Assembly: GCF_022179465.1 (NCBI RefSeq) | Contig: NZ_BPQV01000007.1 | Coordinates: 124,001-188,000 of the forward strand | DNA: 64,000 bases | Source of the DNA: Methylobacterium organophilum | Lineage (GTDB): Bacteria; Pseudomonadota; Alphaproteobacteria; Rhizobiales; Beijerinckiaceae | Direction of reading: 5' to 3' | In this document: positions 26,106-45,438 of the stretch, in pieces | Layout of the letters: every line of letters starts with the position of its first letter | Position numbering within the stretch: the first letter of the stretch is position 1 | The notes under the pieces: model-generated | Seen by the model: only the letters and a program-made list of their open reading frames with translations | The model's database searches: none | What the model was told of the DNA's origin: nothing | Position numbers and translations under genes: made by a program

Positions 26106-26603
26106 TCAGGCCGGCGCGGGCGCCTCGGCAGCCTGTGCGGTGCGCCACCGCTCCTGCACGGCGCGGGCACCGCGCAGGATCGAGGCGTAGCCGGTGCAGC
26201 GGCAGAGATGGCCTGCGAGCGCCGCACGGAGCGCCGCCTCGTCGGCCTCCGGATCGCGCCGGAGCAGCGCCACCAGGGCGATGGTGAAGCCCGGGGCGCA
26301 ATAGCCGCACTGGAAGGCGTTCTCCGCGACGAGCGCGGCCCGCACCATCTCGGCCTCCGGCAGGGCGTCGAGCCCCTCGGCGGTCACCACCTCGGCGCCG
26401 TCGAGCCGGTAGGCCGGCACCAGGCAGGCATTGGCCGGCGCGCCGTCGACGAGGACGAGGCAGGCGCCGCAGCGCCCGATGCCGCAGCCGGGCTTGGCGG
26501 CGGTGAGCCTGTGATCCTCGCGCAGGATGTCGAGGAGGCGCTGATCGGGCGGCCCGGCGAGCGCCTGCTCGCGACCGTTCAGGCGAAAGCACGGCGTGGT
26601 CAT
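26106..26603 (-). CDS. 2Fe-2S subunit of a xanthine-dehydrogenase-family molybdenum hydroxylase
   Basis: A 165-residue electron-transfer subunit with two [2Fe-2S] clusters: the plant-ferredoxin type (Cys40, Cys45, Cys48, Cys60) and the helical type (Cys99, Cys102, Cys134, Cys136; FQCGYCAPGF and HLCRCTGY). It passes electrons from the Mo centre to FAD. ATG 26603 overlaps the stop of the FAD-Mo gene by 4 nt, so the two are made together. It is the last clear member of the long minus-strand catabolic operon that begins at 38168. Confidence 0.95.
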   Translation of the reverse strand: MTTPCFRLNGREQALAGPPDQRLLDILREDHRLTAAKPGCGIGRCGACLVLVDGAPANACLVPAYRLDGAEVVTAEGLDALPEAEMVRAALVAENAFQCGYCAPGFTIALVALLRRDPEADEAALRAALAGHLCRCTGYASILRGARAVQERWRTAQAAEAPAPA

Positions 26604-30521: not shown

Positions 30522-31036
30522 GCCTGCCCATCCTGCGGGCCGGAGGAGGCCCGCAGCCGCGCGCCCCAGGCGTCGAGGATCGCGGCGGCCTGCGGCGCGC
30601 CATGCTGCTCGGCGGGCAGCGCCCGCTGCTCGACCGGGGCGCCGGCCTCCGCCCGCAGGGCGTCCGGGTCGACGGGATGGCGTTGCGCCCGGGTCAGCCC
30701 CGCGAAGGCGGTGCCGGCATCCTCCATGGAGGCGGCGTAGTAGAGCCGGGAGATGCCGACCACGCTCATCGTCGCCACGCAGAGGGCGCAGGGCTCGCAG
30801 GAGGTGTAGAGTTCGCAGCCCCTGAGATCGAGGCATTGCAGGCGCGAGCAGGCGTCACGGATCGCCTCGACCTCGCCGTGGGAGGTCGGGTCGAACCGCG
30901 CCCGGGCGCGGTTCAGCCCCTCGCCGACGATCTCCCCGTCGCGCACGATCACGGCGCCGAAAGGCTCGGTGCCGGGCTCGGTCAGGGCGCGCTCGGACAG
31001 GGCGATCGCCCGTTTCATGAAGCGTTCGTCGTACAT
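30518..31036 (-). CDS. Nucleobase/nucleoside deaminase (CDA fold, guanine-deaminase-like)
   Basis: A 172-residue zinc deaminase. The catalytic HxE is His53-Gly-Glu55 (TSHGEVEAI) and the zinc Cys pair is Cys83 and Cys86 (CEPCALC). FGAVIVRDGEIVGEG and the length are typical of GuaD/TadA-like enzymes acting on free bases. ATG 31036 has GAGGA before it; an alternative ATG at 31048 overlaps the upstream Rieske-like gene by 4 nt. It removes an amino group from a heterocycle; guanine or a methylated analogue is plausible in this context. Confidence 0.85.
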   Translation of the reverse strand: MYDERFMKRAIALSERALTEPGTEPFGAVIVRDGEIVGEGLNRARARFDPTSHGEVEAIRDACSRLQCLDLRGCELYTSCEPCALCVATMSVVGISRLYYAASMEDAGTAFAGLTRAQRHPVDPDALRAEAGAPVEQRALPAEQHGAPQAAAILDAWGARLRASSGPQDGQA

Positions 31037-31044
31037 CCCCGTCC

Positions 31045-31911
31045 TCATCCCGGCTGACCGGTGGTGCCGAAGCGCAGGCCCTTCTCCTTGAGCCAGCGCC
31101 GGTAGACCACGGAGGACTTGTCGGCGCGGGTCGGAATCTCGTGCCGGGGCTCCAGCGGCAGGCGCAGGGGTCGCTGGTTCTCGACGATGATGCGGTCCTG
31201 CAGGAAGATGACCTGCTCGAAGTTCAGGAGCGCGGTGTGCGTCGAGACGTCGTCGACGAGGTACATCACCGCCTGCGCCCGGCATAGCTCCTCCTCCATC
31301 GGCTGGATAAACAGGGCGATGGCGTCGAGGCGCGTCGGCGCGGTCGGGCAGACCCGGTAGAGCATCACCACGAAGGGCGAGGGCACCCGGTAGGTCAGCC
31401 GCACGAAGTCGCCGCTCGACTCGGTGGCCGCGATGCGGGGCTGGAAGAAGGTGCAGTTGGTGGCCCAGACCTCGTCCACGTCCCGCCGGATCTCGGAGGC
31501 GTAGGCCGGCACCTCCGTATGCGGCTCGGCCCCGAGGATGTCCGTGTGGACGAAGGGGAAATGGGCCATGTCGAGGAAGTTCTCGACCACGCGGGGCGCC
31601 GAGGTGCGCAGCTTCACCCAGCCGCAGGGTACGAAGCGACGGTCCGCCTCGGCGGCCTCCTCGATGACGAGGAGGTCGCGGTTGGGCTGGCCCAGCGTCG
31701 TCCAGAGGCAGCCGTAGCGCTCCCGGGCCGGCAGGGCGGGGCCGAGGCTGCCATCCGCGGCCCGCTCGCGCACGAGGAAGGCGCCGTCCTCGCGCCGCTC
31801 GGAGACGATGTCCTGGCCGAGAAGCCGCGTGGCGCGGGGCCGCGCCGTCACCTCGGCCGCGGTCTCGATGGCGTACCACTCGTTCAGGGCGACGGGGTCG
31901 GTGGTCTTCAT
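31045..31911 (-). CDS. Rieske-oxygenase catalytic subunit lacking the Rieske cluster (copy 1)
   Basis: A 288-residue protein. The mononuclear-iron motif of Rieske oxygenases is intact: Asn111, Asp114, His117 and His122 (NFLDMAHFPFVH), followed by the distal block QDRIIVENQRP. The [2Fe-2S] Rieske motif (CxH...CxxH) is absent: the N-terminal region keeps the flanks (LLGQDIV and ERYGCLWTTLG) but the cysteine/histidine-bearing middle is missing. It must receive electrons from a Rieske protein in trans, most likely the one at 38630. The nearest described logic is NdmC of caffeine-degrading Pseudomonas. It is about 60% alike by eye to the copy at 44057. Confidence 0.85.
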   Translation of the reverse strand: MKTTDPVALNEWYAIETAAEVTARPRATRLLGQDIVSERREDGAFLVRERAADGSLGPALPARERYGCLWTTLGQPNRDLLVIEEAAEADRRFVPCGWVKLRTSAPRVVENFLDMAHFPFVHTDILGAEPHTEVPAYASEIRRDVDEVWATNCTFFQPRIAATESSGDFVRLTYRVPSPFVVMLYRVCPTAPTRLDAIALFIQPMEEELCRAQAVMYLVDDVSTHTALLNFEQVIFLQDRIIVENQRPLRLPLEPRHEIPTRADKSSVVYRRWLKEKGLRFGTTGQPG

Positions 31912-31975
31912 CGCTCGGTGCTCCTCGGGCCCCGGGTGTCTCGAACGGCACGGCCGACGGGCGGTCGCGGCGGCG

Positions 31976-33379
31976 TCACAGCGGCTTCCCCGGGGCCGCG
32001 CCCGAGGCCGCGAGCGCCGCCTCGGCCTGCGCGAAGAGCTTGCCTTCGTCGAGGCCGACCAGCTCGCCCTTCCGCCAGACGATGCGGCCGTTGATCATGG
32101 TCAGGTCGACGGGCGCGCCGATCCCGACCCGCGGGATCAGGCTCAGGGGATCGTGGCGCGTGCCGACATAGTCCATCCGGCGCGTGTCGATGGCGAAGAG
32201 ATCGGCGGCCATGCCGGGCGCGAGCCGGCCGATATCGTCGCGGCCGAGCACCTGCGCGCCGCCGGCGGTGGCGTAGGCGAGGAAGTCCGCCGCCGGCGGA
32301 ACGGGATGGGCGCGCTTCGCGGCGACGAGGCACTGCAGCATGTAGGCCGAGTGCAGGCAGTGCATCAGATTGGAATTGTCGTTCGAGGCGGCGCCGTCGC
32401 AGCCGAGGCCGAGCTTCACGCCGAAAGCGGCCATGGCCGGGATGTCGGTGACCTCGGCGCCCACCAGGTAGACCGGCTCCGGGCAATGCGCGACGCCGGT
32501 GCCGCTGCGCGCGAGGGTGCGCAGCTCGTCGTGGGTCAGCTCCCAGCAATGGGCGTAGAAGGCGTCCGGCCCGGCAAAGCCGAGCTCCGCGCAGTAATCG
32601 ACCGTGCGCATCCCGTGGCGCGCCTGGATCACCGCGCTCTCGCCCTCGCCGACATGCGTGTGCATCATCACCCCGCGGTCCCGCGCCAGGGCGACGGATT
32701 CCACGAAGGTCTCGCGGTAGCAGTTCACCGGCTGGCAGGGCGCCACCACGACCCGGCGCATGCCGAAGCGCCCCGCCTCGTGATAGCTGTCGATCAGCCG
32801 CGCACAGTCGCCGATGAACTCGTCCGTGGTCTCCAGCATCGCGTCGGGGATCGTCGAGCCTTCCGACTTCGGCAGGGTGTTGCCGCCGCGGCCCGCGTGG
32901 AAGCGCAGGCCCAGCAGCTCCGCCGCCTCGAACTGGCGGTCGATCAGGCGCTTCCCGGCATGGCGCGGAAAGCAGTACTGATGGTCGAGCGCCGTGGTGC
33001 AGCCATGCTTGATCAGCTCCGCCATGGCGGTGACCGAGGAATGGTAGAAGCAATCCTCGTCGAGCCGGGAGAAGACCGGATAGATCCGGTCGAGCCATTC
33101 GAGCACCGACAGCCTGGTCCAGTCGAGCTCGGCGCGGTTGCGCACGAAGCACTGGAAGAAGTGGTGATGCGTGTTCACGAGGCCCGGATAGACGAACCAC
33201 CCTTCCGCGTTCGTGACCGCGACGCCCTCGGCGAGCGGCCCATCGGCCAGCCCCTGGCCGATCGCCGTGATCGCCGGGCCCTCGATCAGGATGTCGACGT
33301 CGCGCAGCACTTTGGGTCCGCTGCCGTCGTCGCTCACCACGGCGGCGCAGTTCTTCAGGAGGTGGCGCACGGGCGGCAT
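31976..33379 (-). CDS. Amidohydrolase, 8-oxoguanine-deaminase-like
   Basis: A 467-residue amidohydrolase of the ATZ/TRZ subgroup. Metal ligands are visible: HxH in NTHHHFFQ, His in MHTHVGEGE, His in AHCWELT and Asp in GLGCDGAASND; the last motif is shared with 8-oxoguanine and isoxanthopterin deaminases. It hydrolyses C-N bonds of a purine-, pterin- or triazine-like ring, releasing ammonia. It lies 64 nt upstream of the Rieske-like gene and downstream of the ABC importer in the same direction. Exact substrate unknown. Confidence 0.85.
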   Translation of the reverse strand: MPPVRHLLKNCAAVVSDDGSGPKVLRDVDILIEGPAITAIGQGLADGPLAEGVAVTNAEGWFVYPGLVNTHHHFFQCFVRNRAELDWTRLSVLEWLDRIYPVFSRLDEDCFYHSSVTAMAELIKHGCTTALDHQYCFPRHAGKRLIDRQFEAAELLGLRFHAGRGGNTLPKSEGSTIPDAMLETTDEFIGDCARLIDSYHEAGRFGMRRVVVAPCQPVNCYRETFVESVALARDRGVMMHTHVGEGESAVIQARHGMRTVDYCAELGFAGPDAFYAHCWELTHDELRTLARSGTGVAHCPEPVYLVGAEVTDIPAMAAFGVKLGLGCDGAASNDNSNLMHCLHSAYMLQCLVAAKRAHPVPPAADFLAYATAGGAQVLGRDDIGRLAPGMAADLFAIDTRRMDYVGTRHDPLSLIPRVGIGAPVDLTMINGRIVWRKGELVGLDEGKLFAQAEAALAASGAAPGKPL

Positions 33380-33425
33380 CGGCAGACTCGATCTGAAATT
33401 CGGGAGCGGAGAGGCCGCCCGCCCC

Positions 33426-34361
33426 TCACCGCACGTCGCGGTGATAGGGGCGGGCCAGGGCGGCGGGCTCGGCGAAGAAGGGCTTCAGCCGCTGCCAAGC
33501 GACCACGGGCAGGATGATGAAGGCGATAGTGCCGAGATAGGGCAGCATCGAGAGGATGGCCGGCGCCACCGGCCAGCCGCGGGCTTGGCCGACGAAGCCC
33601 AGGGCCGTGATGATGCCGAAGATCAGCGCCGCCCCCACCGCCGTGAGCGGCCGGTAGCCCGCGAAGATCACGAGCGCCACCGCGATCCAGCCGCGGCCGG
33701 CCACCACGCCCTCCGACCAGGACGGCACGAAGGCGAGGGTGAGATAGGCGCCGGCCCCCCCGGCCAGGGCCGCGCCCAGAGCCACGTACCAGAACCGGAT
33801 CGCGGTGACGGGGATGCCAGAGGCGTCGGCGGCGGCGGGATTCTCGCCCACCGCCCGCATGTTGAGGCCGTGGCGCGTCTTGAACATCAGCCAATGGATG
33901 GCCACCGGCAGGAGACCGTAGATCAGGTAGACGAGCAGGTTCTGCGAGAACAGCGCCTGCCCGACCACCGGCAGGTCGCTGAGATACGGGATCGGCACGC
34001 GCTCGAACACGGCCCTGGCCGGCGAGCCCGCATAGGGGCGCCCGAGGGTCGCGGCGAGGCCGGTGCCGAGCAGGGTGAGGGCGAGGCCGCACAGCACCTG
34101 GTTGGCCCGCATCAGGACGGTGGCCAGGGCGAACAGGCAGCCGAACAGGAAGCCGGCGGCGAGCGCCGCCAGGAAGCCGAGCGTCGGGCTCGCCGTCGCC
34201 GAGACGGTGGCGATGCCGGTGAGCGCGCCCATCGCCATCAATCCCTCGACGCCGAGATTCACGACGCCGACCCGCTCGGCCAGAACCTCGCCGAGGGCGG
34301 CGAGCGCCAGAACGCCGCCCGCCAGCACGGCGGTGGCGAGAATGCCGGTGATGATCTCCAT
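33426..34361 (-). CDS. ABC transporter permease 2 (nucleoside/base type)
   Basis: A 311-residue inner-membrane permease of the BPD_transp_2 family with about 8-9 hydrophobic segments. The family's GVVNLGVEGLMAMGA block is near residues 33-48 and the GA.GGAGAYLTLAF region near 200. It is 10 nt after the other permease. Together with that protein, the double ATPase and the BMP-type binding protein it forms an importer of the class that takes up purine nucleosides or related compounds. Confidence 0.9.
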   Translation of the reverse strand: MEIITGILATAVLAGGVLALAALGEVLAERVGVVNLGVEGLMAMGALTGIATVSATASPTLGFLAALAAGFLFGCLFALATVLMRANQVLCGLALTLLGTGLAATLGRPYAGSPARAVFERVPIPYLSDLPVVGQALFSQNLLVYLIYGLLPVAIHWLMFKTRHGLNMRAVGENPAAADASGIPVTAIRFWYVALGAALAGGAGAYLTLAFVPSWSEGVVAGRGWIAVALVIFAGYRPLTAVGAALIFGIITALGFVGQARGWPVAPAILSMLPYLGTIAFIILPVVAWQRLKPFFAEPAALARPYHRDVR

Positions 34362-34371
34362 GGCGATCCCC

Positions 34372-35424
34372 TCAGGCGGCCCGCGCCGGCTGGCGCACGA
34401 GCTTGTAATGGGCGAGCTCGTCGCCGATCGCAGTGAAGAACAGGATCAGGCCCGTGGTCGCGAGCACGGCGCTGGTGTTCAGGCCCTGGGCCGACAGGAT
34501 GATGCCGGCGTTCAGGAGCGTCGCCATCAGCGCCGCCGTGGCGAGCACCGCGAGGCAGGAGCCGCGGGCGAGCACGGCGACCATGATGCCGAGATAGCCG
34601 TAATTGTTGGAGATGCCGCCCTGGAGACGGTGGGCGGTGCCCGACAGCTCGATCATGCCGGCGAGCCCGGCGATGGCGCCGGAGAGCAGCATCACCGCGA
34701 TGATGCGGCGGCGCACGGGGATGCCGGCATAGATCGCCGCGCCCGGATTGGCACCGGCGACGCGGACCTCGTAGCCGAAGCGGGTGAAGCTGAGGAGCAG
34801 GGCCACCCCGATCGCCACGGCGACCGCGATCGGCAGGCCCCAATGCAAAGCGTCGCCCAGGGCCGGCATCTCGTAGGGCACCCGCGCCGTCGCCGCGAGT
34901 GCGGCGCCGGTCTTGTCCCGCCAGGGCCCGGTCGCGACCCAGGCCACGAGCAGGGCCGCGACGAAGTTGAGGAGCAGGGTCGTGATCAGCTCGTTCACCC
35001 CGGCATAGGCCCGGGCCAGGGTGGGCAGCAGGATCCACAGCGCCCCGGCCACCATGGCCGCGGCGGCCATGGCCGGGAGCATCGCGGAATCCGGCCCGTC
35101 CAGGTGAAGCCCGACCGCGGTCGCCGCCAGGGCGCCGACGCTGAACTGGCCCTCGCCGCCGATGTTCCACAGCCCGATCCGCTGGGTGATCGCGACGGCG
35201 ATGCCGGTGAGGATCAGGGGCGTGAGCAACAGTCCCACATCCTCCAGGCCCTCCATGGAGCCGGTCGCCGTCGTCAGGAAGTCGGCTCCCATGGCGACGG
35301 GCGCCCGGCCGCCCACCGCCAGCACGAGGCCGACGCAGAGGAGCGCGATCAGGATCGCGAGGATGCGTCCCGTCAGGGCCGCAGCGGCAGTCGCCGAGGG
35401 CATGCGTTGGAGGCGCCAGTTCAT
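34372..35424 (-). CDS. ABC transporter permease 1 (nucleoside/base type)
   Basis: A 350-residue BPD_transp_2 permease with about 9-10 membrane segments. It has the family's LWNIGGEGQFSVGALAAT block near residues 88-105 and a GLAGMIELSGTAHRLQ segment. It is 15 nt after the ATPase gene and 10 nt before the second permease. It pairs with the latter to form a heterodimeric channel. Confidence 0.9.
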   Translation of the reverse strand: MNWRLQRMPSATAAAALTGRILAILIALLCVGLVLAVGGRAPVAMGADFLTTATGSMEGLEDVGLLLTPLILTGIAVAITQRIGLWNIGGEGQFSVGALAATAVGLHLDGPDSAMLPAMAAAAMVAGALWILLPTLARAYAGVNELITTLLLNFVAALLVAWVATGPWRDKTGAALAATARVPYEMPALGDALHWGLPIAVAVAIGVALLLSFTRFGYEVRVAGANPGAAIYAGIPVRRRIIAVMLLSGAIAGLAGMIELSGTAHRLQGGISNNYGYLGIMVAVLARGSCLAVLATAALMATLLNAGIILSAQGLNTSAVLATTGLILFFTAIGDELAHYKLVRQPARAA

Positions 35425-35439
35425 CGTGTCGATCCGCCG

Positions 35440-37050
35440 TTACGCTTGCATCTGCCGCTGCCCGCCCATCATCAGGCCGAGCGTCTCGATATCGGCCTCG
35501 GCCGCAGGCACGGTGCCCATGATCCGCCCGTTGAAGAGCACGGCGATGCGGTCGGAGAGTTCGAGCAGTTCCTCCAGCTCCTCGGAGAACAGCAGCACCG
35601 CCTTGCCCTCGTCGCGCAGGGCCGCGATCAGCGAAAGCAGGGTGTCGATGGCGCCGACATCGAGGCCGCGGCTCGGATAGGCCGCCACGAGGACGCGATC
35701 GGCGATGCGCACCTCGCGCCGGGCCACCAGGCGCTGCTGGTTGCCGCCGGAGAGGTTGCGCACCGGCATCTCGAAGCTCGGGATCGCGACCTCGGCCGCC
35801 TTGGCCATGGCGCGGGCGACCCGGCCCGCCGCCCGCGGCCGGAACAGGCCGAAGCCCCCGATCGGCGGTTTGCCGTATTCCCGCAGGACCGCATTGTCCG
35901 TGATGCTCAGGGAGGGCGCGAGGCCGGAGCGCAGGCGGTCCTCCGGGATGTGGCCGATGCCGAGTTTGGCGAAGGCCGCCGCGTCCCCCGCCTTCGCCGC
36001 CTTCCCGTCGACGAGCACCGTGCCGGCCGTGATCGGGCGCATGCCGGTGATGACCTGGCTCAGCTCGCGCTGGCCGTTGCCGGCGACGCCCGCGATCCCG
36101 AGGATCTCGCCGCCATGCAGGCCGATGGACAGGTCGTGGAGCGCCGGGAGGCCGCGATCGTCCAGGGCGTGGATGCCCTTCAGCTCAACGAAGGGCCGGG
36201 GCGAGACCGCCAGGTCCGGCCGCCGCGCCCGCGTCTTGCGCAGGGTGATCTCGTGCCCGACCATCAGCGCCGCGAGGCTGCGCTCCGTGGCGCCCGCGGC
36301 CGGCTGCGTCGCCACCTTGCGGCCGCCGCGCAGCACGCTGATGCGGTCGGCGATCTCGATCACCTCGTCGAGCTTGTGGCTGATGAAGATCACGCCGTTG
36401 CCCCCCTCGCGGAAGGCCCGCAGGGCGCGGAACAGCTCCTGCGCCTCCTGCGGCGTCAGCACGGCGGTCGGCTCGTCGAGGATCAGGATGCGGGCCGAGC
36501 GCGCCAGCACCCGCAGGATCTCCACCCGCTGCTGCTCGCCGGCGGAGAGGTCGCCCACCCGCGCATCCGGCCGCACCGCGAGGTTGAAGCGCTCCGCCAG
36601 CGCCCGGGTGCGCTGCTCCAGCACCGCGGCGGAGGCCCGCCAGGGCGTCTCCGGCCAGCCGAGATGGACGTTCTCGGCCACGGTGAAGGCCGGCACCAGC
36701 TTGAAATGCTGGTGGACCATGCCGATGCCCGCCGCGATCGCCGCCTGCGGGGTCGGCAGGTCCTGGGCGTAGCCGTCGATGATGATGCGCCCGGCATCCT
36801 GCTTGTAGATGCCGGTGAGCACGTTCATCAGCGTGGACTTGCCGGCGCCGTTCTCGCCGAGCAGCGCATGGATCTCCCCCGGCATCACGTCGAGATCGAC
36901 GGAGTCGTTGGCGAGGACGCCGGGGAAGGTCTTGGTGATGCCCTGCAGCTCGACCAGGGGCGGCGTGCCGGGCGGATACCCGGTCCTGCCGTCCTCGGCC
37001 TCGATCGCGGGGAGCGGGGCTTCCGCCCGGGCGAGCGCGAGGGCATTCAT
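35440..37050 (-). CDS. ABC transporter ATP-binding protein, duplicated ATPase domains
   Basis: A 536-residue protein with two ATPase domains. The first has Walker A GENGAGKST and signature LSAGEQQRVEIL with Walker B ILILDEPTAVL. The second starts near residue 290; its Walker A region is degenerate (GVAGNGQRELS) and its signature is LSGGNQQRLV. A degenerate second site is normal for sugar- and nucleoside-type (Mgl/Rbs/Nup-like) importers. The product energises the two permeases. It lies 5 nt after the binding-protein gene. Confidence 0.92.
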   Translation of the reverse strand: MNALALARAEAPLPAIEAEDGRTGYPPGTPPLVELQGITKTFPGVLANDSVDLDVMPGEIHALLGENGAGKSTLMNVLTGIYKQDAGRIIIDGYAQDLPTPQAAIAAGIGMVHQHFKLVPAFTVAENVHLGWPETPWRASAAVLEQRTRALAERFNLAVRPDARVGDLSAGEQQRVEILRVLARSARILILDEPTAVLTPQEAQELFRALRAFREGGNGVIFISHKLDEVIEIADRISVLRGGRKVATQPAAGATERSLAALMVGHEITLRKTRARRPDLAVSPRPFVELKGIHALDDRGLPALHDLSIGLHGGEILGIAGVAGNGQRELSQVITGMRPITAGTVLVDGKAAKAGDAAAFAKLGIGHIPEDRLRSGLAPSLSITDNAVLREYGKPPIGGFGLFRPRAAGRVARAMAKAAEVAIPSFEMPVRNLSGGNQQRLVARREVRIADRVLVAAYPSRGLDVGAIDTLLSLIAALRDEGKAVLLFSEELEELLELSDRIAVLFNGRIMGTVPAAEADIETLGLMMGGQRQMQA

Positions 37051-37055
37051 CGGGA

Positions 37056-38168
37056 TCAGGCTCCGAGACCGGCCACGCCTTCGATCGACCAGTCCCAGCT
37101 GTAGAGCTCCATGTCGGTCATCGCCTTGCCGGCCGGGACGCGGACCTTGCCCTTGTTGTCCTTGAGCTCGCCGGTGAAGGGGTTGTAGCCGGCGAGCATC
37201 TTCTCGCGCACGGCGTCGGCCTGCTTGGCCACCGCCTCCGGCACGCTCTCGCCCCACTTGTCGCGGTCGATGCCCCCGCCCAAGGGCAGGATGGTGCCCG
37301 TCGGCTGCCAGGTGCCGGCGAGGCGCTTGGCGACCTGATCGACGTAGAACTTCTTCCAGTCGCAGACGACGGAGCTGACATAGGCCTTCGGCCCGAAGCG
37401 GCGCATGTCGGTGTTCCACATGGCCGCCTTGATGCCGCGCTGCTCCGCGACCTGCAGATAGCCGGCCTCGTCCATGATGCCGAAGAGGAAGTCGCAGCCG
37501 TTGTTGGCGAGCGCCACGCCGGCCTGGGTCGCGGCCTGGGGGTCGAACCAGGAATTGATGGTGACGACCTGCAGCGTGGCCTCAGGCTTCACCGAGCGGG
37601 CCCCCATCAGGAAGGCGTTGGTGGAGGCGTAGCAGGAGGCGACGGGGAAGGAGGCGACATAGCCGAGCTTGCCGGTCTTGCTCATCAGGCCGGCGGCGAC
37701 GCCGATCACGTAGGTCGGGTACCAGTGCGCGAGGTAGTACCAGCCCTGGTTCTCGTCGACGGTGGAGCCGTTGGCCTCCATCACCGCCACGCCCTTGGCG
37801 CGCTTGCTCACGTCCTTGAGGAAGTCGCCGTATTGCGAGGTGGCGAAGATGATGTTCGCCTTCTGCGAGACGAACTGGCGGAAGGTGCGGGTCGCGTCCG
37901 CGGAATAGGGGATCGACTCGACGAAGAGCGTCTTGGCCTGCGGGAAGGCGGCCTGGACGGCCTTCATGCCCTGGTCGTGGCTCCAGGTCCAACCCTCGTC
38001 GTTGACGGGGCCGACATGCCCGAAGGCGATGACCGCATCCTTCTCGGCGACGGGGGCGAAGCTGGCGGCCTGTGCCTGCCTGAGGGTGGGCGGGAGCAGA
38101 AGCCCGGCCCCGGCCGCGGCCCCGAGCCCAAGGAAGCGGCGCCGGTCGGGCGTCAAGATCTTTGCCAT
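37056..38168 (-). CDS. BMP-family (nucleoside-type) periplasmic binding protein
   Basis: A 370-residue solute-binding protein with a Tat-type signal (RRRFLGLGAAAGAGLL, cleavage after QAQA near residue 34) and the Med/BMP fold: AFGHVGPVNDEGWTWSHDQG, a FATSQYGDF segment and VIGVAAGLMSKTG. BMP proteins bind purine nucleosides and related ligands. Start ATG 38168; upstream frame is not protein-like. It is the first gene of a minus-strand operon that runs to 26106, so import and degradation of the ligand are probably coexpressed. Confidence 0.92.
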   Translation of the reverse strand: MAKILTPDRRRFLGLGAAAGAGLLLPPTLRQAQAASFAPVAEKDAVIAFGHVGPVNDEGWTWSHDQGMKAVQAAFPQAKTLFVESIPYSADATRTFRQFVSQKANIIFATSQYGDFLKDVSKRAKGVAVMEANGSTVDENQGWYYLAHWYPTYVIGVAAGLMSKTGKLGYVASFPVASCYASTNAFLMGARSVKPEATLQVVTINSWFDPQAATQAGVALANNGCDFLFGIMDEAGYLQVAEQRGIKAAMWNTDMRRFGPKAYVSSVVCDWKKFYVDQVAKRLAGTWQPTGTILPLGGGIDRDKWGESVPEAVAKQADAVREKMLAGYNPFTGELKDNKGKVRVPAGKAMTDMELYSWDWSIEGVAGLGA

Positions 38169-38362
38169 CGATGCAGTCCCCGTGGCGGGCGCTGGTTTCG
38201 CGCCCTGTGCAGGGACCGGAGCGGCAAGAAGCGTGCCTGTTCCGGGGAAGCGGGTCCCCACGGGAAGTCCGCCCGGCCCGCATCTCGGCCGCGTTGGTGC
38301 AAATCCTGCGATGCGCCCCCGGCCGCGCCCTCCCGGGGCACGGAAGCCGGAGTCGAGGCTCA
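38169..38362. promoter_or_regulatory. Divergent control region of the catabolic cluster
   Basis: A 194-bp gap between the two divergent operons (BMP importer leftward; acylphosphatase-like/Rieske genes rightward). It must hold both promoters. I could not find a convincing palindrome or a -35/-10 pair; a TGCAAATCCTGCGATGC segment at about 38298-38314 has repeated TGC elements that loosely recall the LysR-linked palindrome at 45397, but this is weak. Only the location is firm. Confidence 0.4.
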
Positions 38363-38602
38363 GTGCAAACCTTCACGACCATCGTTTTCACCGGCCGCTT
38401 CCGGCCGGCGAGCTTTCGCGCCTTCGCCGAACACCGCGCCCATCTGCTCGATCTCGGCGCGCGCTTCGTCGAGGCGGGCCCGGAGCGGATCACGGTCGCC
38501 GTGTCCGGTCAGCGCGACTTCGTCGATGCCTTCGAGATGGCCTGCAGCCTCGGACCGATCGATTGCCTCGTCCTGGAGGTCGAGCGCGCAGATGCGTCCT
38601 AA
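38363..38602 (+). CDS. Small acylphosphatase-like protein
   Basis: A 79-residue protein starting with GTG 38363, with GAGG 5 nt before. The layout follows the acylphosphatase fold: TIVFTGRFRPASFRAFAEHRA in two parts, a central strand ITVAVSGQRDFVDAF, and CSLGPIDCLVLEVE at the end. The classical catalytic loop G.VQGVGFR is altered to GRFRPASFR: the Phe-Arg pair is kept but the phosphate-loop glycines are not, so enzyme activity is doubtful. It is the first gene of the plus-strand operon, 27 nt before the Rieske gene, and might be an assembly or regulatory partner. Confidence 0.6.
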   Translation: MQTFTTIVFTGRFRPASFRAFAEHRAHLLDLGARFVEAGPERITVAVSGQRDFVDAFEMACSLGPIDCLVLEVERADAS

Positions 38603-38629
38603 CACTTTGGATACAAGGAGATTTCTGGC

Positions 38630-39280
38630 ATGAACGAGACGCCGGGGTGGTACGCCCTCGCCCTCTCCGCGGACCTCGATCCGGGCACCTCCACCGGGAC
38701 GCGCCTGTTCGGCAACGAACTCGTCGTCTGGCGCGATCAGGCCGGCGCGGCCCATATCTGGGAGGACCGCTGCCCGCATCGCGGCATGCGCCTCAGCTTC
38801 GGCTTCGTGCGCGGCGACCACATCGCCTGCCTCTATCACGGCTGGCAATACGACACCGCCGGCCAGTGCCGCTACATCCCGGCCCATCCGGATCTCGAGG
38901 TCAGCCCGATGATCCGCACGCGCACCTACCGGAGCGTGGAGCGGAGCGGCCTGATCTGGGTGGCCTGGGAGACGGAATCCGATCCGCCGCCCGAGACTGC
39001 GGCGGAGTCGCTCACCGTCCTGCGCAGCCTGACCCTCGACGTGCCGGCCGCGAGCCTCCCCGACGCCTTCGCCGTGACGGAAGGGGCGGACGGGCTTCTG
39101 CGGGGCACCCTCGCCGGGCTTCCCGTGCGGCTCGCGGTGCAGCCGCTCGCGCCGGCGCAAAGCGCTGCCCACATTCTGCTCGACGGTCCGAGCGATGCCT
39201 TTACGAGCGCAGACCGTGCACGGGCCGCGCATGCCTGTGCAGCACTCCGCTCCGCGCTCGAAATGCGGGCAGCGTCATGA
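38630..39280 (+). CDS. Stand-alone Rieske [2Fe-2S] protein
   Basis: A 216-residue protein whose first 120 residues are a complete Rieske domain: Cys48-Pro-His50 (DRCPHRGM) and Cys67-x2-His70 (CLYHGWQYD), then IPAHPDLEV and GLIWVAW, exactly as in the N-terminal half of Rieske oxygenases. No mononuclear iron motif follows; residues 125-216 form a short extra domain I do not recognise. AAGGAG precedes ATG 38630. It overlaps the GST-like gene by 4 nt. It is the obvious electron donor for the two Rieske-less catalytic subunits in the flanking operons. Confidence 0.9.
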   Translation: MNETPGWYALALSADLDPGTSTGTRLFGNELVVWRDQAGAAHIWEDRCPHRGMRLSFGFVRGDHIACLYHGWQYDTAGQCRYIPAHPDLEVSPMIRTRTYRSVERSGLIWVAWETESDPPPETAAESLTVLRSLTLDVPAASLPDAFAVTEGADGLLRGTLAGLPVRLAVQPLAPAQSAAHILLDGPSDAFTSADRARAAHACAALRSALEMRAAS

Positions 39281-39906
39281 GCACGATCCTCTACGACTAC
39301 GAACTCGACGAGAACGGCTACAAGGTCCGACTGCTGCTCGGCGCCCTCGGGGTCGCCCACGAGACGGTGGGCGTCGACATGTTCCCCGGCGCCGAGCAGA
39401 CGCGCTCGCCGCTGATCGAGCGGAATCCGCTCGGCACCCTGCCGATCCTCGTGGACGGGGAGACGGTGCTGCGGGAGGCGGAGGCGATCCTCGTCTATCT
39501 CGCCCGCCGCCACGATCCGGCCGGGACCTGGCTCCCCGGGGAGCCGGGCGCGCTGGGGCAGACCATGGCCTGGCTCGTCTTCGCCGCCCGGGACCTGCAG
39601 GCCGCGACGCTCGCCCGCCGGACCGCGATGTTCGACGTGCCCGGCGACGCCGCTTCCCTGGAACAGGCGTCGCGGGCCGCCTTCAATGCCATGGAGGACC
39701 ACATGGTCCTGCGCGGCATCGCCGGCAGACGCTGGTTCGTCGGCGAGAGCGCGACCATCGCCGACCTCGCCCTGTTCCCCGCCTTCGCGCTGAGCCGCGA
39801 CCACGGCATCGACCACGAGGCCTACCCGGCCCTTCGCCGCTGGATGCGCGCCGTGCGCACCCTGCCGGGCTTCCGCACCATGCCCGGCATCCCGGACTAC
39901 CACTGA
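39277..39906 (+). CDS. Glutathione S-transferase-fold protein
   Basis: A 209-residue GST-fold protein: thioredoxin-like N-terminal domain (LYDYELDENGYKVRLLLGAL, NPLGTLPILVDGETVLREAEAIL in parts) and an all-helical C-terminal domain with the ATIADLALFPAF N-capping motif. It overlaps the Rieske gene by 4 nt, which suggests a stoichiometric partner. In purine N-demethylation of Pseudomonas, the GST-like protein NdmE is needed to hold the Rieske-less NdmC with NdmD; the same structural role is an attractive inference here. Ordinary glutathione chemistry is the alternative. Confidence 0.88.
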   Translation: MSTILYDYELDENGYKVRLLLGALGVAHETVGVDMFPGAEQTRSPLIERNPLGTLPILVDGETVLREAEAILVYLARRHDPAGTWLPGEPGALGQTMAWLVFAARDLQAATLARRTAMFDVPGDAASLEQASRAAFNAMEDHMVLRGIAGRRWFVGESATIADLALFPAFALSRDHGIDHEAYPALRRWMRAVRTLPGFRTMPGIPDYH

Positions 39907-39933
39907 GGATTTCATGACGATGAGAGTGTTCCC

Positions 39934-40434
39934 ATGACGCCGGGTGCCGTCGACGCGGTCCTGCGGGGACTGAAGAAGGCGGGCGTGTCCGTCGCCTGCT
40001 ACCTGCCGGATTCCCTGTTCAAGCCGCTCTATCCGGCACTCGACGCCGATCCGGATATCCGCACCATCCCCGTGACCAACGAGGGCGAGGGCGCCGCGAT
40101 CTGCGGCGGCGTCTTCCTCTCGGGCAAGCGCGCCGTACTGGTGATGGAGAATTCGGGCCTGCGCGCCTCGGTCGAGCCCCTCGCCCGGATGGGGCTCGGT
40201 GCCGGCATCCCGGTGGTGATGCTGATGAGCTACCGGGGCGAACTCGGCGAGAACAATTGGTGGGCGATCCCCCACGGCATCACCATGGAGCCGGTGCTCC
40301 AGGCCCTGCGCGTGCCCTACCGCGTGGTGCGGGAAGAGGCGGAGGTCGAGCGCAGCATCGAGGACGCCTACGCCTCGGCCTACGCCTCCTACTACCACAC
40401 CGCGATCGTTCTCGGCGGGAGCCTCGTGCGATGA
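39934..40434 (+). CDS. ThDP-dependent decarboxylase-like, pyrimidine-binding subunit (ComD-like)
   Basis: A 166-residue subunit resembling the alpha part of sulfopyruvate decarboxylase and the N-terminal half of phosphonopyruvate decarboxylase: YLPDSLFKPL, the NEGEGAAICGGV motif with the ThDP-activating Glu, and VMENSGLRASVEPLA. It overlaps the next gene by 4 nt. With that gene it makes one complete thiamine-diphosphate site. The substrate is a 2-oxo acid; there are no sulfolactate or phosphonate genes around, so the name by homology should not be taken as the true reaction. Confidence 0.8.
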   Translation: MTPGAVDAVLRGLKKAGVSVACYLPDSLFKPLYPALDADPDIRTIPVTNEGEGAAICGGVFLSGKRAVLVMENSGLRASVEPLARMGLGAGIPVVMLMSYRGELGENNWWAIPHGITMEPVLQALRVPYRVVREEAEVERSIEDAYASAYASYYHTAIVLGGSLVR

Positions 40435-41042
40435 TGACACGCTACGACTGCATGAAGCTCCTCAGCCGCCGGCTGAAGGACGAGCTTGTCATCCTCTCCC
40501 TCGGGGGCAGCGTGGACGAGTGGTACGACGCCGCCCCGCACATGCGCGCGGCGAGCCTGTTCCAGCAGCAGCTCGGCTGCGTGACGCCCCAGGCCTTCGG
40601 ACTCGCCGCGGGCCTGCCCCACCGCCGCATCGTCTCCCTCGACACGGATGGCGGCCTGCTCTTCAACCTCGGCATCCTGGCGACGCTGGCCAACGAGCAG
40701 CCGAAGAACCTGTTCGTCGTCGTCTGGGACAACCAGTGCTACCAGTCGATCGGCGGCCCGCCGACCCACACCGCCAAGGGCCGGGTCGATCTCGCCGGCA
40801 TGGCCCGGGGCGCCGGCATCGAGCACGCCTACACGGCCCGCGACCTCGACTCCTTCGAGCGGCATTGCGCCGAGGGCCTTGCCGCCGACAGCCCCTACAT
40901 CGTCGTCGCCAAGGTGGACGGCACCGTGCGGGCGGGCATCAAGCGCAAGCACAGCGACGGGCGCGAGGACAAGTACATCTTCGTGCGCCATGTCGAGGCG
41001 ACCGAAGGCATCGTCATCATGGGCCCGAGCGAGCACAACTGA
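40431..41042 (+). CDS. ThDP-dependent decarboxylase-like, ThDP-binding subunit (ComE-like)
   Basis: A 203-residue subunit with the thiamine-diphosphate/Mg motif beginning at DTDGGLLFNLG and ending near VVWDNQCYQSIGG, as in ComE. ATG 40431 (or the next codon) overlaps the alpha-like gene by 4 nt; the stop TGA overlaps the GMC gene start by 1 nt. The C-terminal 30 residues (KRKHSDGREDKYIF) are highly charged. It completes the enzyme described for the preceding gene. Confidence 0.8.
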   Translation: MMTRYDCMKLLSRRLKDELVILSLGGSVDEWYDAAPHMRAASLFQQQLGCVTPQAFGLAAGLPHRRIVSLDTDGGLLFNLGILATLANEQPKNLFVVVWDNQCYQSIGGPPTHTAKGRVDLAGMARGAGIEHAYTARDLDSFERHCAEGLAADSPYIVVAKVDGTVRAGIKRKHSDGREDKYIFVRHVEATEGIVIMGPSEHN

Positions 41043-42595
41043 TGCTCACCGACGCCGATGAGGGACTGAAAGCCGCCTACGACATCATCGTCGTGGGCGC
41101 CGGCACCGGCGGATGCGTGGTGGCCGGGCGGCTCGCCGCCGCCGGCCTCCAGGTGCTGCTGGTCGAGGCCGGCCCGCGGGACGAGGCGCATCCCGCCGTC
41201 GCGGATGCGGGCGCCTGGGTGAGTCTGCTCGGCGGCCCCCTGGATTGGGGGCTCGCCTACGCGCCGGGGCCGCAGATTGGCGGCCGCGTGGTCCCGATCC
41301 CGCGCGGCCGGGTGCTGGGCGGTTCGAGCAGCATCAACGCGATACTGTGGAACCGCGGGCACCGCGCCGATTACGACGCCTGGGCCGCCGCCGGCGCCAC
41401 GGGCTGGGACTTCGACAGCATCCTCCCCTTCTTCAAGCGGGCGGAGGACTGGGAGGGCGGCGAGACGGCCCTGCGCGGCGCCGGCGGGCCGCTGCGCATC
41501 GAGACCGCGCGCGATCCCCATCCCGTCGCCCGCGCGCTCGTGGAAGGGGCGGCCGAGCTGGGCTTCCCCGTCCTGGCCGACGCCAACGGGCCGGACATCG
41601 CTGGGGCCGCCTTCGCCAACCTGAACCAGCGGGCCGGACGGCGCTGGAGCGTGGTGGACGGCTATATCCGCCCCCTCGCCGGCAATCCGAACCTCACGGT
41701 GCTGACCGGCTCCGCCGCCCTGGAGCTCACCTTCGAGGGCTCGGCCTGCACCGGCCTGCGCCACAGCCTCGACGGCCGCATCGTCGAGACGCGGGCGCGC
41801 CGGGAGGTCGTGCTGGCGCTGGGCGCCATCGAGACGCCGCGCCTGCTCATGCGCTCCGGCATCGGCGATCCGGAGGACCTCGTCCGCCTCGGGCTGCCCC
41901 GGCGCCTGGCCCTGCCCGGCATCGGGGCGAACCTGCAGGACCATCCCCTGCTGATGGGCGTGAATTTCCGCGTCGAGAAGGCTCTCGGGCCGGTGCGGGA
42001 CAATGGCGGCGGGGCGCAGCTCAACTGGCGCAGCCGCGACGGGCTCGCCGTGCCGGACCTCCACGCCTTCGTGGTGCAGGGCCCCCATGCCGGCCCGGAG
42101 ATCGCCGCCGAATACGGCGTTTCCGGCCACGTCTTCGCGGTCTCGCCGGGGCTGATGGGCTCGCGCAGCGTCGGCTTCCTGCGGATGGAGAGCGCCGCCC
42201 TCGACGGGCCGGTCACGATCCAGCCGAACTACCTCGCCGAGGCGGCCGACCGCGATGCCCTGATCGCTTCCCTCGACACGGTGCTGGCGCTCGCCGACAC
42301 GGCGCCGTTCCGCCGGCTCGGCGCCGTTCCGCTCTCGCCCCCGCGGCGGCTGACGCGCGCGGAGGCCGGGCGCTTCGTGGAGCGGACCTGCTCCACCTTC
42401 TTCCACACCTGCGGCACCTGCGCGATGGGCACCGGGCCGGCCGCCGTGGTCGATCCGGCCCTGAACCTGCATGGGGCGACGGGCCTCCGCATCGCCGACG
42501 CCTCCGTGATCCCGCTCATCCCGACCTGCAACACGCAGGCCCCCGTCGTCATGATCGCCGAGCGCGCCGCCGACCTCGTCGCGGCCGCCGCCTGA
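41042..42595 (+). CDS. GMC-family FAD oxidoreductase
   Basis: A 517-residue flavoprotein. It has the FAD dinucleotide motif VVGAGTGGCVVAGRL near residue 15, GMC signature 1 (RGRVLGGSSSINAILWNRG), signature 2 (LGAIETPRLLMRSGIG) and the C-terminal active-site His and Asn regions (HTCGTCAMG and PTCNTQAP). It oxidises an alcohol or an amino-alcohol-type group (choline-dehydrogenase-like) without a signal peptide, so in the cytoplasm. It is translationally coupled to the decarboxylase subunit upstream. Its specific substrate in this pathway is unknown. Confidence 0.88.
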   Translation: MLTDADEGLKAAYDIIVVGAGTGGCVVAGRLAAAGLQVLLVEAGPRDEAHPAVADAGAWVSLLGGPLDWGLAYAPGPQIGGRVVPIPRGRVLGGSSSINAILWNRGHRADYDAWAAAGATGWDFDSILPFFKRAEDWEGGETALRGAGGPLRIETARDPHPVARALVEGAAELGFPVLADANGPDIAGAAFANLNQRAGRRWSVVDGYIRPLAGNPNLTVLTGSAALELTFEGSACTGLRHSLDGRIVETRARREVVLALGAIETPRLLMRSGIGDPEDLVRLGLPRRLALPGIGANLQDHPLLMGVNFRVEKALGPVRDNGGGAQLNWRSRDGLAVPDLHAFVVQGPHAGPEIAAEYGVSGHVFAVSPGLMGSRSVGFLRMESAALDGPVTIQPNYLAEAADRDALIASLDTVLALADTAPFRRLGAVPLSPPRRLTRAEAGRFVERTCSTFFHTCGTCAMGTGPAAVVDPALNLHGATGLRIADASVIPLIPTCNTQAPVVMIAERAADLVAAAA

Positions 42596-42606
42596 AGAGT
42601 ATCGTC

Positions 42607-43989
42607 ATGAGTACCGACCGCATCCTCGCCGCCGACCTCGTCCTCACCATGGATGCGGAGAACCGCGTCCTCACCGACGGCGCCGTGCTGGTGCAGGGCA
42701 ACCGCATCGGCGCCGTGGGCAAGCGGGAGGAGCTGGTGGCGGCCCATCCCGCCGCCGCCCTCGTGCGCCTGCCGGACCGCCTGCTGATGCCGGGCCTCGT
42801 GAACGCGCACATGCATTCCGGCTTCCTGCGCGGCACCGCCGAGCACCTGCCGGTCTGGGACTGGCTGCGGCTGCACATCAACCCGATGCACCGGGTCCTG
42901 AACGCGCAGGAAGCCGAGGCGGCCTCCTGGCTCTGCTACGCGGAGAGCGTGCTCTCGGGCACCACGACGACCCTCGACATGTGGCGCTTCATGGAGGGCA
43001 GCGCCAAGGCGGCGGAGGGCATCGGCAACCGCCTCGTCTGCGTGCCCTATGTCGGCGAGCACGCGGATTACGACTACTTCGACCGCCTCGACGACAACGA
43101 GGCCCTGATCGAATCCCGCCACGGCAGCGCGGAGGGACGCATCTCGGTCTGGGTCGGGCTGGAACACCTGTTCTACGCCGACGAGGCGGGCCAGCGCCGG
43201 GCCATCGAGATGGCGAAGCGGCACAACACGGGCTTCCACACCCATTGCAGCGAGGCAGAGGTCGAGGTCGCCGAGTTCGAGCGGCGCTATGGCTGCCGGG
43301 CGATGTTCGCCCTCGACAAGCTCGGCTTCTTCGAGGCGCCCAAGGCGCTGATCGCCCATGCGGTCTGGCTCGACCTGGCGGAGGTGGCGCTGATCGCGGG
43401 GCGGGGCGTCGCAGTGGCGCATAACCCGGTGAGCAACATGAAGCTCGCGAGCGGCATCGCCCCGATCGAAGCCATGCTGAAGGCCGGCGTCGCGGTCGGG
43501 CTCGGCACCGACGGCGAGAAGGAGAACAACAACCTCGACGTGTTCGAGGAGATGAAGACCGCCTCGCTGCTCGGCAAGCTCAAGAGCCTCGACGCCGCCG
43601 CCCTCGATTCCTGGCAGGCCCTGCGCATGGGCACGATCCTCGGGGCGAAGGCGCTCGGGCTCGATCACGAGATCGGCTCCCTCGAGGCCGGCAAGAAGGC
43701 CGACCTGATCGCGGTTCGTACCGACACGCCGCGCATGACGCCGCTCTTCGGCGAGGGGCCGTATTTCAACCTGCAGCACAATCTCGTCCACGCGGTGCGC
43801 GGCTCGGATGTCGACCTCACCATGGTCGACGGACGAGTCGTGGTGCAGGACGGCCGCCTGCTCGGCACGGATCTGCGCGGCCTGATCGACCACGTACGCG
43901 GCCTCGCGCCGGGCCTCTTCGCCCGCCGCGCCGCCTGGCTCGCCGAGCACGAGACCGGCACGGTGCAATGGACCGGCCCCGGCGCGTGA
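42607..43989 (+). CDS. Amidohydrolase, ATZ/TRZ/SAH-deaminase-like
   Basis: A 460-residue amidohydrolase with the metal ligands NAHMHSG, FHTHCSEAE, LIAHAVWLD and GLGTDGEKENNN, as in methylthioadenosine/S-adenosylhomocysteine deaminases and chlorohydrolase relatives. It hydrolyses an amino or related group on a heterocycle. It follows the GMC gene by 11 nt and precedes the second Rieske-like gene by 67 nt. It is only distantly like the amidohydrolase at 31976, so the pathway has two separate hydrolytic steps or substrates. Confidence 0.85.
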   Translation: MSTDRILAADLVLTMDAENRVLTDGAVLVQGNRIGAVGKREELVAAHPAAALVRLPDRLLMPGLVNAHMHSGFLRGTAEHLPVWDWLRLHINPMHRVLNAQEAEAASWLCYAESVLSGTTTTLDMWRFMEGSAKAAEGIGNRLVCVPYVGEHADYDYFDRLDDNEALIESRHGSAEGRISVWVGLEHLFYADEAGQRRAIEMAKRHNTGFHTHCSEAEVEVAEFERRYGCRAMFALDKLGFFEAPKALIAHAVWLDLAEVALIAGRGVAVAHNPVSNMKLASGIAPIEAMLKAGVAVGLGTDGEKENNNLDVFEEMKTASLLGKLKSLDAAALDSWQALRMGTILGAKALGLDHEIGSLEAGKKADLIAVRTDTPRMTPLFGEGPYFNLQHNLVHAVRGSDVDLTMVDGRVVVQDGRLLGTDLRGLIDHVRGLAPGLFARRAAWLAEHETGTVQWTGPGA

Positions 43990-44056
43990 GGCCATGGAAC
44001 GGAGCCGGCGCGGGCGGCGACGCCCCCGCGCCGGGAGAGCGAGGAGGGACAGGGAC

Positions 44057-44905
44057 ATGACGCTCGAACCAGCGATCCGGGATGAATGGTATGTGGTGGG
44101 CGCACTGGCGGAGTTCGGCCGGGGGGAGACGCGGACGCGTCTCCTCGGCAGCGACCTCGTGATCGAGGCCGGATCGGAGGGCGATCCTCCGTCCGTGCGC
44201 GAGAGCGGCGGCCGGGCGCTGCCGGTGCGCTGCCGCTACGGCTATCTCTGGACGAGCCTCGGGGATCCCGCCCGCGAGCCGCCCGCGATCCCCGAGACGG
44301 AGGAGACGGACCGGCGCCACGTCGTCTGCGGATCGGTGCAGGTGCGCGCCTCGGGCCTGCGGATCATCGAGAACTTCCTCGACATGGCCCATTTCCCCTT
44401 CGTCCACACGGACATCCTGGGCGCCGAGCCGCATACGGAGGTGCTGCACTACACCACCGAGATCCGGCGGGACATCGACGAGGTCTGGGCGACGAACTGC
44501 CAGTTCTTCCAGCCGCAGGCGGCTCTCTCGGCCACCACCGGGATCATGACGCAGTACCAGTACCGCGTCGCCACCCCGCACGTGACCATGCTCTACAAGA
44601 CCTGCCCGAACGCGGCGAACCGCTGGGACGTGATCTGTCTGTTCGTGCAGCCCCTCGAACCGGGGCTCTGCAAGGTGCACCCGGTCATGTTCCTGATCGA
44701 CGACGTGTCGCGGCTGTCCGATCTGGTGGGCTTCCAGCAGCTCATCTTCCTGCAGGACCGCATCATCCTGGAGAACCAGAGGCCGGTGCTGCTGCCGCTG
44801 GAGCCGAAGGCCGAGATTCCGACCCGCGCGGATTCCTCGTCGGTCGCCTATCGGCGCTGGCTGAAGGAGAAGGGCGTCGTCTACGGCACCACCCTCGCCG
44901 CCTGA
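44057..44905 (+). CDS. Rieske-oxygenase catalytic subunit lacking the Rieske cluster (copy 2)
   Basis: A 282-residue paralogue of the gene at 31045. The iron motif is intact: Asn106, Asp109, His112 and His117 (NFLDMAHFPFVH), with the distal QDRIILENQRP block and the shared tail RRWLKEKG. As in the other copy there is no CxH...CxxH; flanks LLGSDLV and RYGYLWTSLG remain. The two copies may form a heteromer or act on successive positions of the substrate, as different N-demethylases do. It is the last gene of the plus-strand operon, before a strong terminator. AGGGACAGGGAC precedes ATG 44057. Confidence 0.85.
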   Translation: MTLEPAIRDEWYVVGALAEFGRGETRTRLLGSDLVIEAGSEGDPPSVRESGGRALPVRCRYGYLWTSLGDPAREPPAIPETEETDRRHVVCGSVQVRASGLRIIENFLDMAHFPFVHTDILGAEPHTEVLHYTTEIRRDIDEVWATNCQFFQPQAALSATTGIMTQYQYRVATPHVTMLYKTCPNAANRWDVICLFVQPLEPGLCKVHPVMFLIDDVSRLSDLVGFQQLIFLQDRIILENQRPVLLPLEPKAEIPTRADSSSVAYRRWLKEKGVVYGTTLAA

Positions 44906-45340: not shown

Positions 45341-45396
45341 GGTCTTGGATCTTTCCCTTGTCGCCAGGGCCCGATGCCCTTGCGTCTGAGGCGAAT

Positions 45397-45415
45397 ATGC
45401 TGTGCACCGCAGCAT
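45397..45415. promoter_or_regulatory. Palindrome in the lysR divergent region
   Basis: ATGCTG-TGCACCG-CAGCAT (6-bp arms, 7-bp spacer) lies between the small exported gene and lysR, 24 bp before the lysR start. LysR-family proteins commonly bind such imperfect dyads in the gap upstream of their own gene and repress it. It is a candidate autoregulatory site. Confidence 0.4.
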
Positions 45416-45438
45416 GTATCAAATCGATCCGATTGCTG

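Follow-up and report, generated by a model that had tools for sequence, protein, structure and literature searches.

A probable split Rieske oxygenase with one free Rieske protein and two catalytic paralogs in Methylobacterium organophilum

Genes of the locus

The window analyzed here is a 64,000-nucleotide stretch of Methylobacterium organophilum DNA (assembly GCF_022179465.1, contig NZ_BPQV01000007.1, positions 124,001 to 188,000). It encodes what is very probably a split Rieske oxygenase, in which one free Rieske protein, together with a glutathione S-transferase (GST)-like part and usually also an acylphosphatase-like part, would serve two Rieske-less catalytic subunits, cat1 and cat2. The cat1 gene (31045..31911, minus strand) encodes 288 residues and the cat2 gene (44057..44905, plus strand) 282 residues. 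Between them on the plus strand are a gene with a GTG start for a 79-residue acylphosphatase-like protein (38363..38602), which ends just ahead of the gene for the 216-residue Rieske protein (38630..39280), and the gene for a 209-residue GST-like protein (39277..39906) that overlaps the Rieske gene by 4 bases. The last is the counterpart of NdmE, the GST-like partner in the NdmCDE caffeine N7-demethylase of Pseudomonas putida CBB5.

Catalytic subunits

Both catalytic genes have intact frames, and were identified by motifs and Pfam matches together with alignment (cat1) or tree placement (cat2). The iron motif NFLDMAHFPFVH is found at residue 111 of cat1 and residue 106 of cat2, and the CxH...CxxH pair of a Rieske cluster is absent from both; the single CKVH of cat2, at 205, has no CxH to pair with. 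The Pfam family VanA_C (PF19112) is matched by cat1 at 1.9e-16 and by cat2 at 4e-16, KshA_C weakly, and a Rieske family by neither. These motif and Pfam results confirm the first-pass annotation, which had described both proteins as keeping the complete iron motif without a Rieske motif and had left unstated that the first gene lies on the minus strand. The two proteins are 59% identical and come from an old duplication.

A total of 116 catalytic open reading frames (ORFs) were collected, with four one-chain proteins set apart. The deduplicated alignment has 112 rows, namely 110 relatives and both window proteins, and excludes by length a short protein of genome G386 and a fused Variovorax protein, both described below. 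N111, D114, H117, H122 and D239 (cat1 numbering) are invariant in all 112 rows; from the alignment and from family knowledge, we take H117, H122 and D239 to be the iron ligands and D114 the bridging residue. The 2-His-1-carboxylate site and bridging Asp of a Rieske oxygenase alpha subunit are thus present throughout, and the joining of both domains on one chain, also expected of such a subunit, is absent here. Among aligned rows scanned with Pfam, VanA_C was matched by 54 of 54 and a Rieske family was reached by a single row, at E 0.097; the motif scan likewise turned up no hidden Rieske motif.

Sequence comparison indicates that the N-terminus of the catalytic proteins (about residues 1–75) is a hollowed Rieske scaffold, with outer strands kept and about 50 cluster-surrounding residues gone. 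The catalytic family profile is collinear with SxtDIOX over 2–48 and 101–333, skipping 49–100, the first piece alone being weak (9.4 bits). Profile comparison of this N-terminus with the Rieske domain gave a probability of 95–96 and a score of 48, where 50 column shuffles reached 16 at best and reversal gave 11. The ndmCDE-like plasmid proteins of P. putida and Sinorhizobium meliloti show the same hollowed alignment (one S. meliloti copy is start-trimmed, its first residues missing). In genome G386 a catalytic gene without the first ~65 residues directly follows the Rieske stop codon (locus L162, 9784-10476); this may be a deletion, an assembly error or total loss of the Rieske scaffold.

Free Rieske protein

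The 216-residue protein, encoded by an intact frame, has a Rieske domain at about residues 1–118, with ligands C48, H50, C67 and H70 (CPH at 48, CLYH at 67), and a conserved tail at 119–216; the iron motif is absent. It matches PF00355 at 4.5e-24 with no catalytic-domain match in Pfam, in agreement with the first-pass description of a Rieske motif without an iron motif, and its aligned relatives do likewise (PF00355 in 60 of 60, a catalytic family in none, at E up to 0.1). Alpha-subunit Rieske domains (SxtT, 1.6e-28) are much nearer to it than are ferredoxins (best 2.8e-6), so that its nearest homology is not to the ferredoxin components of three-component oxygenases. By this measure it is an alpha-subunit-type Rieske domain followed by a conserved tail of about 100 residues.

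Conservation was read from 84 rows of free proteins shorter than 260 residues, including the window's own; fused proteins and that of L071 were excluded. The four Rieske ligands are kept in all 84, and so are H181 and R207 of the tail (38984-39277, plus strand). No recurrent Pfam family was found for the tail in the aligned relatives scanned. Global-type profile alignment gave the tail a probability of 0.03 against the catalytic domain and 0.05 against the one-chain relatives. Local alignment against the catalytic domain placed 21 columns around the '(I)QP' strand with probability 14 and score 23.9; against the one-chain relatives the probability was 0.16. The score of 23.9 exceeds that of every one of 300 column shuffles (maximum 21.1); reversal of the tail gave 15.0, and the acylphosphatase-like family, taken as an unrelated control, gave 18.4 against the catalytic domain. 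The local alignment offers no more than a hint that the tail could be a remnant of a catalytic domain.

Co-occurrence across genomes

Our sample of the phylum to which the window belongs (Pseudomonadota, judging by its nearest named relatives) comprised 398 genomes. Catalytic-only matches were found in 15, in G386 beginning at residue 67 of the model. Rieske-model matches reaching the tail (position 187 or beyond of 225, E up to 1e-20) were found in exactly those 15 genomes and no other; all other Rieske-model matches end at position 154 or earlier. The chance odds of an identical set are 1.7e-27 on the assumption of independent genomes, which these are not (six family codes). The Rieske protein is free in nine of the 15 (G000, G440, G226, G329, G164, G308, G293, G433 and G386), fused to FNR-Fer2 in five (G153, G109, G129, G376 and G310) and fused to Fer2 alone in one (G377); the free form is therefore the commoner in this sample. 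The G433 Rieske frame is open for 400 codons further upstream, where Pfam is empty. A GST gene adjoins the set in all 15.

A collection scan yielded at least 533 relatives, which may include one-chain enzymes, and the best 80 were kept as nearest loci, the Rhodococcus loci L073 and L078 among them. Exactly one Rieske ORF is present in 76 of the 80, and a GST gene in the same 76. For the remaining four (L040, L044, L058 and L078) the family Rieske gene is elsewhere in the genome, the match in the L078 genome covering 37–220. In a Rhizobium phaseoli plasmid each junction between the Rieske, catalytic and GST genes is a 4-base overlap. The same gene set, sought in other genomes, is thus found widely, and the arrangement is not peculiar to the window. 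As to whether catalytic-only proteins always come with a free Rieske gene, a Rieske partner exists in 15 of 15 genomes and 80 of 80 loci, but in six of the 15 genomes it is fused rather than free.

One Rieske protein with two catalytic paralogs

Pfam finds five Rieske domains in the source genome; because the other four sit in frames of 339–417 residues, one free Rieske protein faces two catalytic proteins. The two-catalytic genomes G000, G440, G109, G129 and G153 have one tail-bearing Rieske each. On each of six contigs a cat1-type and a cat2-type locus were retrieved with one Rieske gene in common, its sequence matching exactly over the 180 residues that were compared; a seventh case, L059, has both paralogs within one locus.

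In the catalytic tree there is a cat1-type clade of 40 rows and a cat2-type clade of 47 rows, with support of 100 and 99 by SH-like approximate likelihood ratio test (SH-aLRT), both nested in a larger free-Rieske group of 97 rows (SH-aLRT 98). The tandem catalytic genes of S. meliloti, G109, G129 and G153 form two groups outside this free-Rieske group (99, 99), and therefore duplication with a shared Rieske seems, from sequence, to have occurred at least twice. The tree was built by a quick method and its starred branches need caution; the long branches L172, L162, L158 and L161 are unsure, and cat1 of G440 (locus L148) is omitted. S. meliloti psymA (L171, 6930-11223) carries Rieske-less catalytic genes as a tandem pair, together with a single NdmD-like gene and a single GST gene, and is apparently an independent two-for-one set.

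Accessory proteins

The GST gene is the constant fourth part of the set, and the acylphosphatase-like gene its usual fifth. The latter is found in 72 of the 80 nearest loci. Over all loci, with overlapping loci counted twice, it is on the locus of 84 of 91 free Rieske ORFs, and it overlaps the Rieske gene or ends no more than 60 bases from it in 75 of 84 pairs; it was found in none of the 10 fused loci examined (L037, L154-L157, L159, L160, L168, L169 and L171). The profile of the 79-residue family matches acylphosphatase structures (best 3.3e-5), and PF00708 is matched by 25 of 41 rows (E up to 1; best 8.7e-9; window protein 0.039). At the positions that we take to hold the acylphosphatase catalytic residues, Arg is present in four of 41 rows, and the residues listed at the presumed Asn position include one Asn. 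This protein is probably a non-enzymatic assembly part.

Reductase modules

In some sets reductase modules are fused to the Rieske protein as Rieske-FNR-Fer2, the NdmD type. In G377 the reductase part is reduced to a Fer2 domain on the Rieske protein, and in G386 a separate FNR-Fer2 gene adjoins the free Rieske gene. A Variovorax paradoxus plasmid (L172, 7845-9806) encodes VanA_C followed by NAD-binding and Fer2 domains, with a weak FAD domain. That one chain is cut at different points in different sets is the strongest indication that its Rieske, catalytic and reductase modules would function together. The Variovorax fusion has a free Rieske gene upstream together with a GST gene, and is a mirror image of NdmD. 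A flavin reductase (PF01613) encoded at 29841 was considered as a general partner and rejected, having a relative in none of the 80 loci and one in L035.

Interpretation and alternative explanations

In Rieske oxygenases, according to PMC12445004 and PMC7948474, the electron crosses between subunits over about 12 Å by way of a bridging acid, which in CntA is essential to inter-subunit electron transfer (PMC7948474); it follows that the two redox domains can reside on different chains. In the mechanism that we propose, electrons of NAD(P)H would pass to a reductase encoded elsewhere in the genome and from it to the free Rieske protein and its [2Fe-2S] cluster. Once docked on a catalytic subunit with a hollowed Rieske domain, that protein would hand the electrons across the subunit boundary; through the bridging Asp, which is conserved, they would reach the mononuclear iron, the proposed site of O2 activation. 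The GST-like and, usually, acylphosphatase-like proteins would act as assembly parts. Comparative genomics supports, at the genome level, the first-pass proposal that oxygenases are assembled here in trans around an independent, shared Rieske subunit.

Several results weigh against this proposal. An FNR-type reductase gene was found in none of the 80 nearest loci (one query), and the reductase of free-Rieske sets is on that account probably encoded elsewhere. The source genome has two candidates, C5 and C6, neither clearly dedicated: the best reductase match (C5, 36% identity) adjoins a gene resembling, by eye, dimethylamine monooxygenase, and C6 is near an ordinary Rieske oxygenase; neither was assigned. 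The whole-genome searches scored only six or seven candidates in most genomes, with the tail search limited to E up to 1e-20, so extra copies could be missed. In L040 and L044 the Rieske gene lies outside the 10-kb flanks of the catalytic gene. On a Lichenihabitans plasmid the Rieske match covers only 1–121 of 225, in a 218-codon frame, from which it follows that the tail can diverge beyond search reach.

The 38630 protein, being small and free and having a clean Rieske motif, might instead be one of the soluble Rieske ferredoxins usual in three-component oxygenases, the catalytic proteins receiving their electrons otherwise. Ferredoxin components do match it weakly, and Rieske_2 is matched by 39 of 60 relatives (best 1.3e-5). 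Nonetheless its closeness to alpha-subunit Rieske domains, the single relative of 60 that touches the soluble Rieske ferredoxin model (0.068), and the confinement of tail-reaching matches to genomes with catalytic-only proteins make this very unlikely. Degenerate remnants without oxygenase activity would explain the loss of the cluster-binding part from cat1 and cat2, but the five metal-site and bridging residues would hardly then be invariant in every row, nor two paralogous clades retained over many genera, and NdmC, which is reported to lack a Rieske cluster, belongs to an active demethylase (PMC4408171); we regard this explanation as extremely improbable.

A closer competitor, if still an unlikely one, is a single hetero-oligomeric oxygenase that contains cat1, cat2 and the Rieske protein, in place of two enzymes with a Rieske protein in common. 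In its favor, the two catalytic genes belong to a cluster built around a single Rieske gene, and tandem catalytic pairs occur in S. meliloti, G109, G129 and G153. Against it, G226, G329, G164 and G308 have a single catalytic match (six candidates scored in each), both paralogs have full iron sites, and cat1-type and cat2-type genes differ in their neighbors, as detailed below.

On the preferred reading of two oxygenases with a shared Rieske protein, evolution appears to have cut the domains apart so that one electron-delivering protein serves both. This would be a natural case of cluster and iron site on separate proteins, each open to mixing, mutation and titration by itself, and gating of the iron site by the Rieske domain would become testable with separate parts. 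A missing partner is also indicated for proteins filed as 'aromatic ring-hydroxylating dioxygenase subunit alpha', the label that such proteins bear in five of the six plasmid stretches read.

Origin of the split

A Rieske tree of 50 selected loci, including all nine FNR-fused rows, was rooted with one-chain relatives. The FNR-fused rows are one group among the free ones (support 96/78), so NdmD may be a later fusion; a single change was found in 98% of 200 bootstrap trees, with deep forks poorly resolved. A more ambitious and doubtful scenario, which we advance tentatively, would make the free-Rieske set the original state of a widespread split class. An alpha subunit would have been duplicated and its two copies reduced in complementary ways: one would have lost the cluster-binding core of its Rieske domain and become the catalytic protein, while the catalytic domain of the other shrank to the 100-residue tail of the Rieske protein. 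The Rieske protein would then be a hub feeding several paralogs, and NdmCDE a special case fused later.

Gene neighborhood

A cytidine/TadA-type deaminase gene (30518..31048, minus strand) overlaps the end of cat1 by 4 bases and is itself overlapped by the flavin reductase-like gene (29841..30521, minus). Profile scans placed beyond it, on the same strand, a xanthine dehydrogenase-like enzyme with fused FAD and molybdopterin subunits (26600..29755) and a 2Fe-2S subunit (26106..26603). On the other side of cat1, also on the minus strand, are an amidohydrolase nearest to the 8-oxoguanine deaminase model, below cut-off (31976..33379, by profile scan), and an ABC uptake system of two permeases, ATPase and Bmp-type binding protein (33426..38168; the second permease, 34372-35424, was named by eye). 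The GST-like gene is followed on the plus strand by a two-subunit thiamine pyrophosphate decarboxylase resembling sulfopyruvate/phosphonopyruvate decarboxylase, below both cut-offs (39934..41042), a GMC oxidoreductase (41042..42595, by profile scan) and a second amidohydrolase (42607..43989) nearest to the N-ethylammeline chlorohydrolase and 5'-deoxyadenosine deaminase models, below their cut-offs. A LysR-type regulator (45358..46377, plus; profile scan) lies beyond cat2, and far from the cluster is a pyrroloquinoline quinone-dependent dehydrogenase of the methanol/ethanol family (10662-12545, minus; TIGR03075).

Of the 38 cat1-type genes among the 80 nearest loci, 35 have a gene for an amidohydrolase or a GMC enzyme upstream. 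For 30 of the 38 the next upstream gene encodes an amidohydrolase, and for 29 the next downstream one is xanthine dehydrogenase-like. Of the 43 cat2-type genes, 33 have a permease or an amidohydrolase upstream, and 27 an amidohydrolase downstream. These neighbors suggest two oxidations of one imported N-heterocycle, which by analogy with NdmCDE may be purine-like; cat1 and cat2 would probably carry out two oxidation steps of that catabolic route. With regard to the N7-demethylation of 7-methylxanthine that characterizes NdmCDE, what the window shows is a purine-like neighborhood, namely the xanthine dehydrogenase-like, 8-oxoguanine deaminase-like and Bmp-type transporter genes. In the window the transporter side of the set holds cat1 and the GMC side cat2; the congener G009 has them reversed, and related loci are like G009.

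Comparison with known systems

The nearest solved structures are SxtT/SxtDIOX and NdmA/NdmB. The split proteins are collinear homologs of the SxtT/SxtDIOX chain, the Rieske protein aligning to about 10–124 and the catalytic proteins to 2–48 and 101–333, whereas in these enzymes both domains are on one polypeptide. One-chain relatives in the window's phylum (G140, G421, G251, G286 and G393) are 38–40% identical in the Rieske part and 32–37% in the catalytic part and are also near Bmp-type transporter genes; they differ in their unsplit frames of 329–400 residues and in having no GST gene in the 10-kb stretches.

The closest known system is NdmCDE, which was compared through plasmid loci of matching gene sizes and order and not through the CBB5 sequences themselves. 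Plasmid loci of P. putida Tik1 and Klebsiella pneumoniae have the order catalytic, Rieske-reductase, GST, with homologs of each part; the catalytic protein of P. putida Tik1 shares 49.6% identity with cat2. These clusters (L168, 11974-15258, in P. putida Tik1; L169, 6980-10260, in K. pneumoniae) are on plasmids typed as conjugative. Because such ndmCDE-sized and ndmCDE-ordered loci fall in the same catalytic tree, the parallel with NdmC and NdmD that the first-pass annotation drew is probably homology. According to PMC4408171, NdmC is without a Rieske cluster, NdmD has an extra one and NdmE is proposed as a structural GST; 18 further organisms, including Sinorhizobium and Mesorhizobium, have homologous ndmCDE-like clusters. 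Some of these clusters may include a free Rieske gene. N7-demethylation requires NdmE, and the structure of the NdmCDE complex is unsolved (PMC13237722).

In the open-licence literature, judged by titles and abstract openings among the matches listed, nothing was found that describes Rieske-less oxygenases supplied by a free Rieske subunit. Within the literature seen, the arrangement, claimed at first pass as new, is new as a variant of NdmCDE with a free Rieske protein and not as a wholly new kind. The two systems share a catalytic subunit with a mononuclear iron site and no Rieske motif, a Rieske domain supplied in trans, and a GST-like partner (NdmE; here 39277-39906). They differ in that the Rieske domain is on the reductase NdmD there and on a free 216-residue protein here, where in addition a second catalytic paralog shares it, an acylphosphatase-like gene is usual, and the reductase gene is not local.

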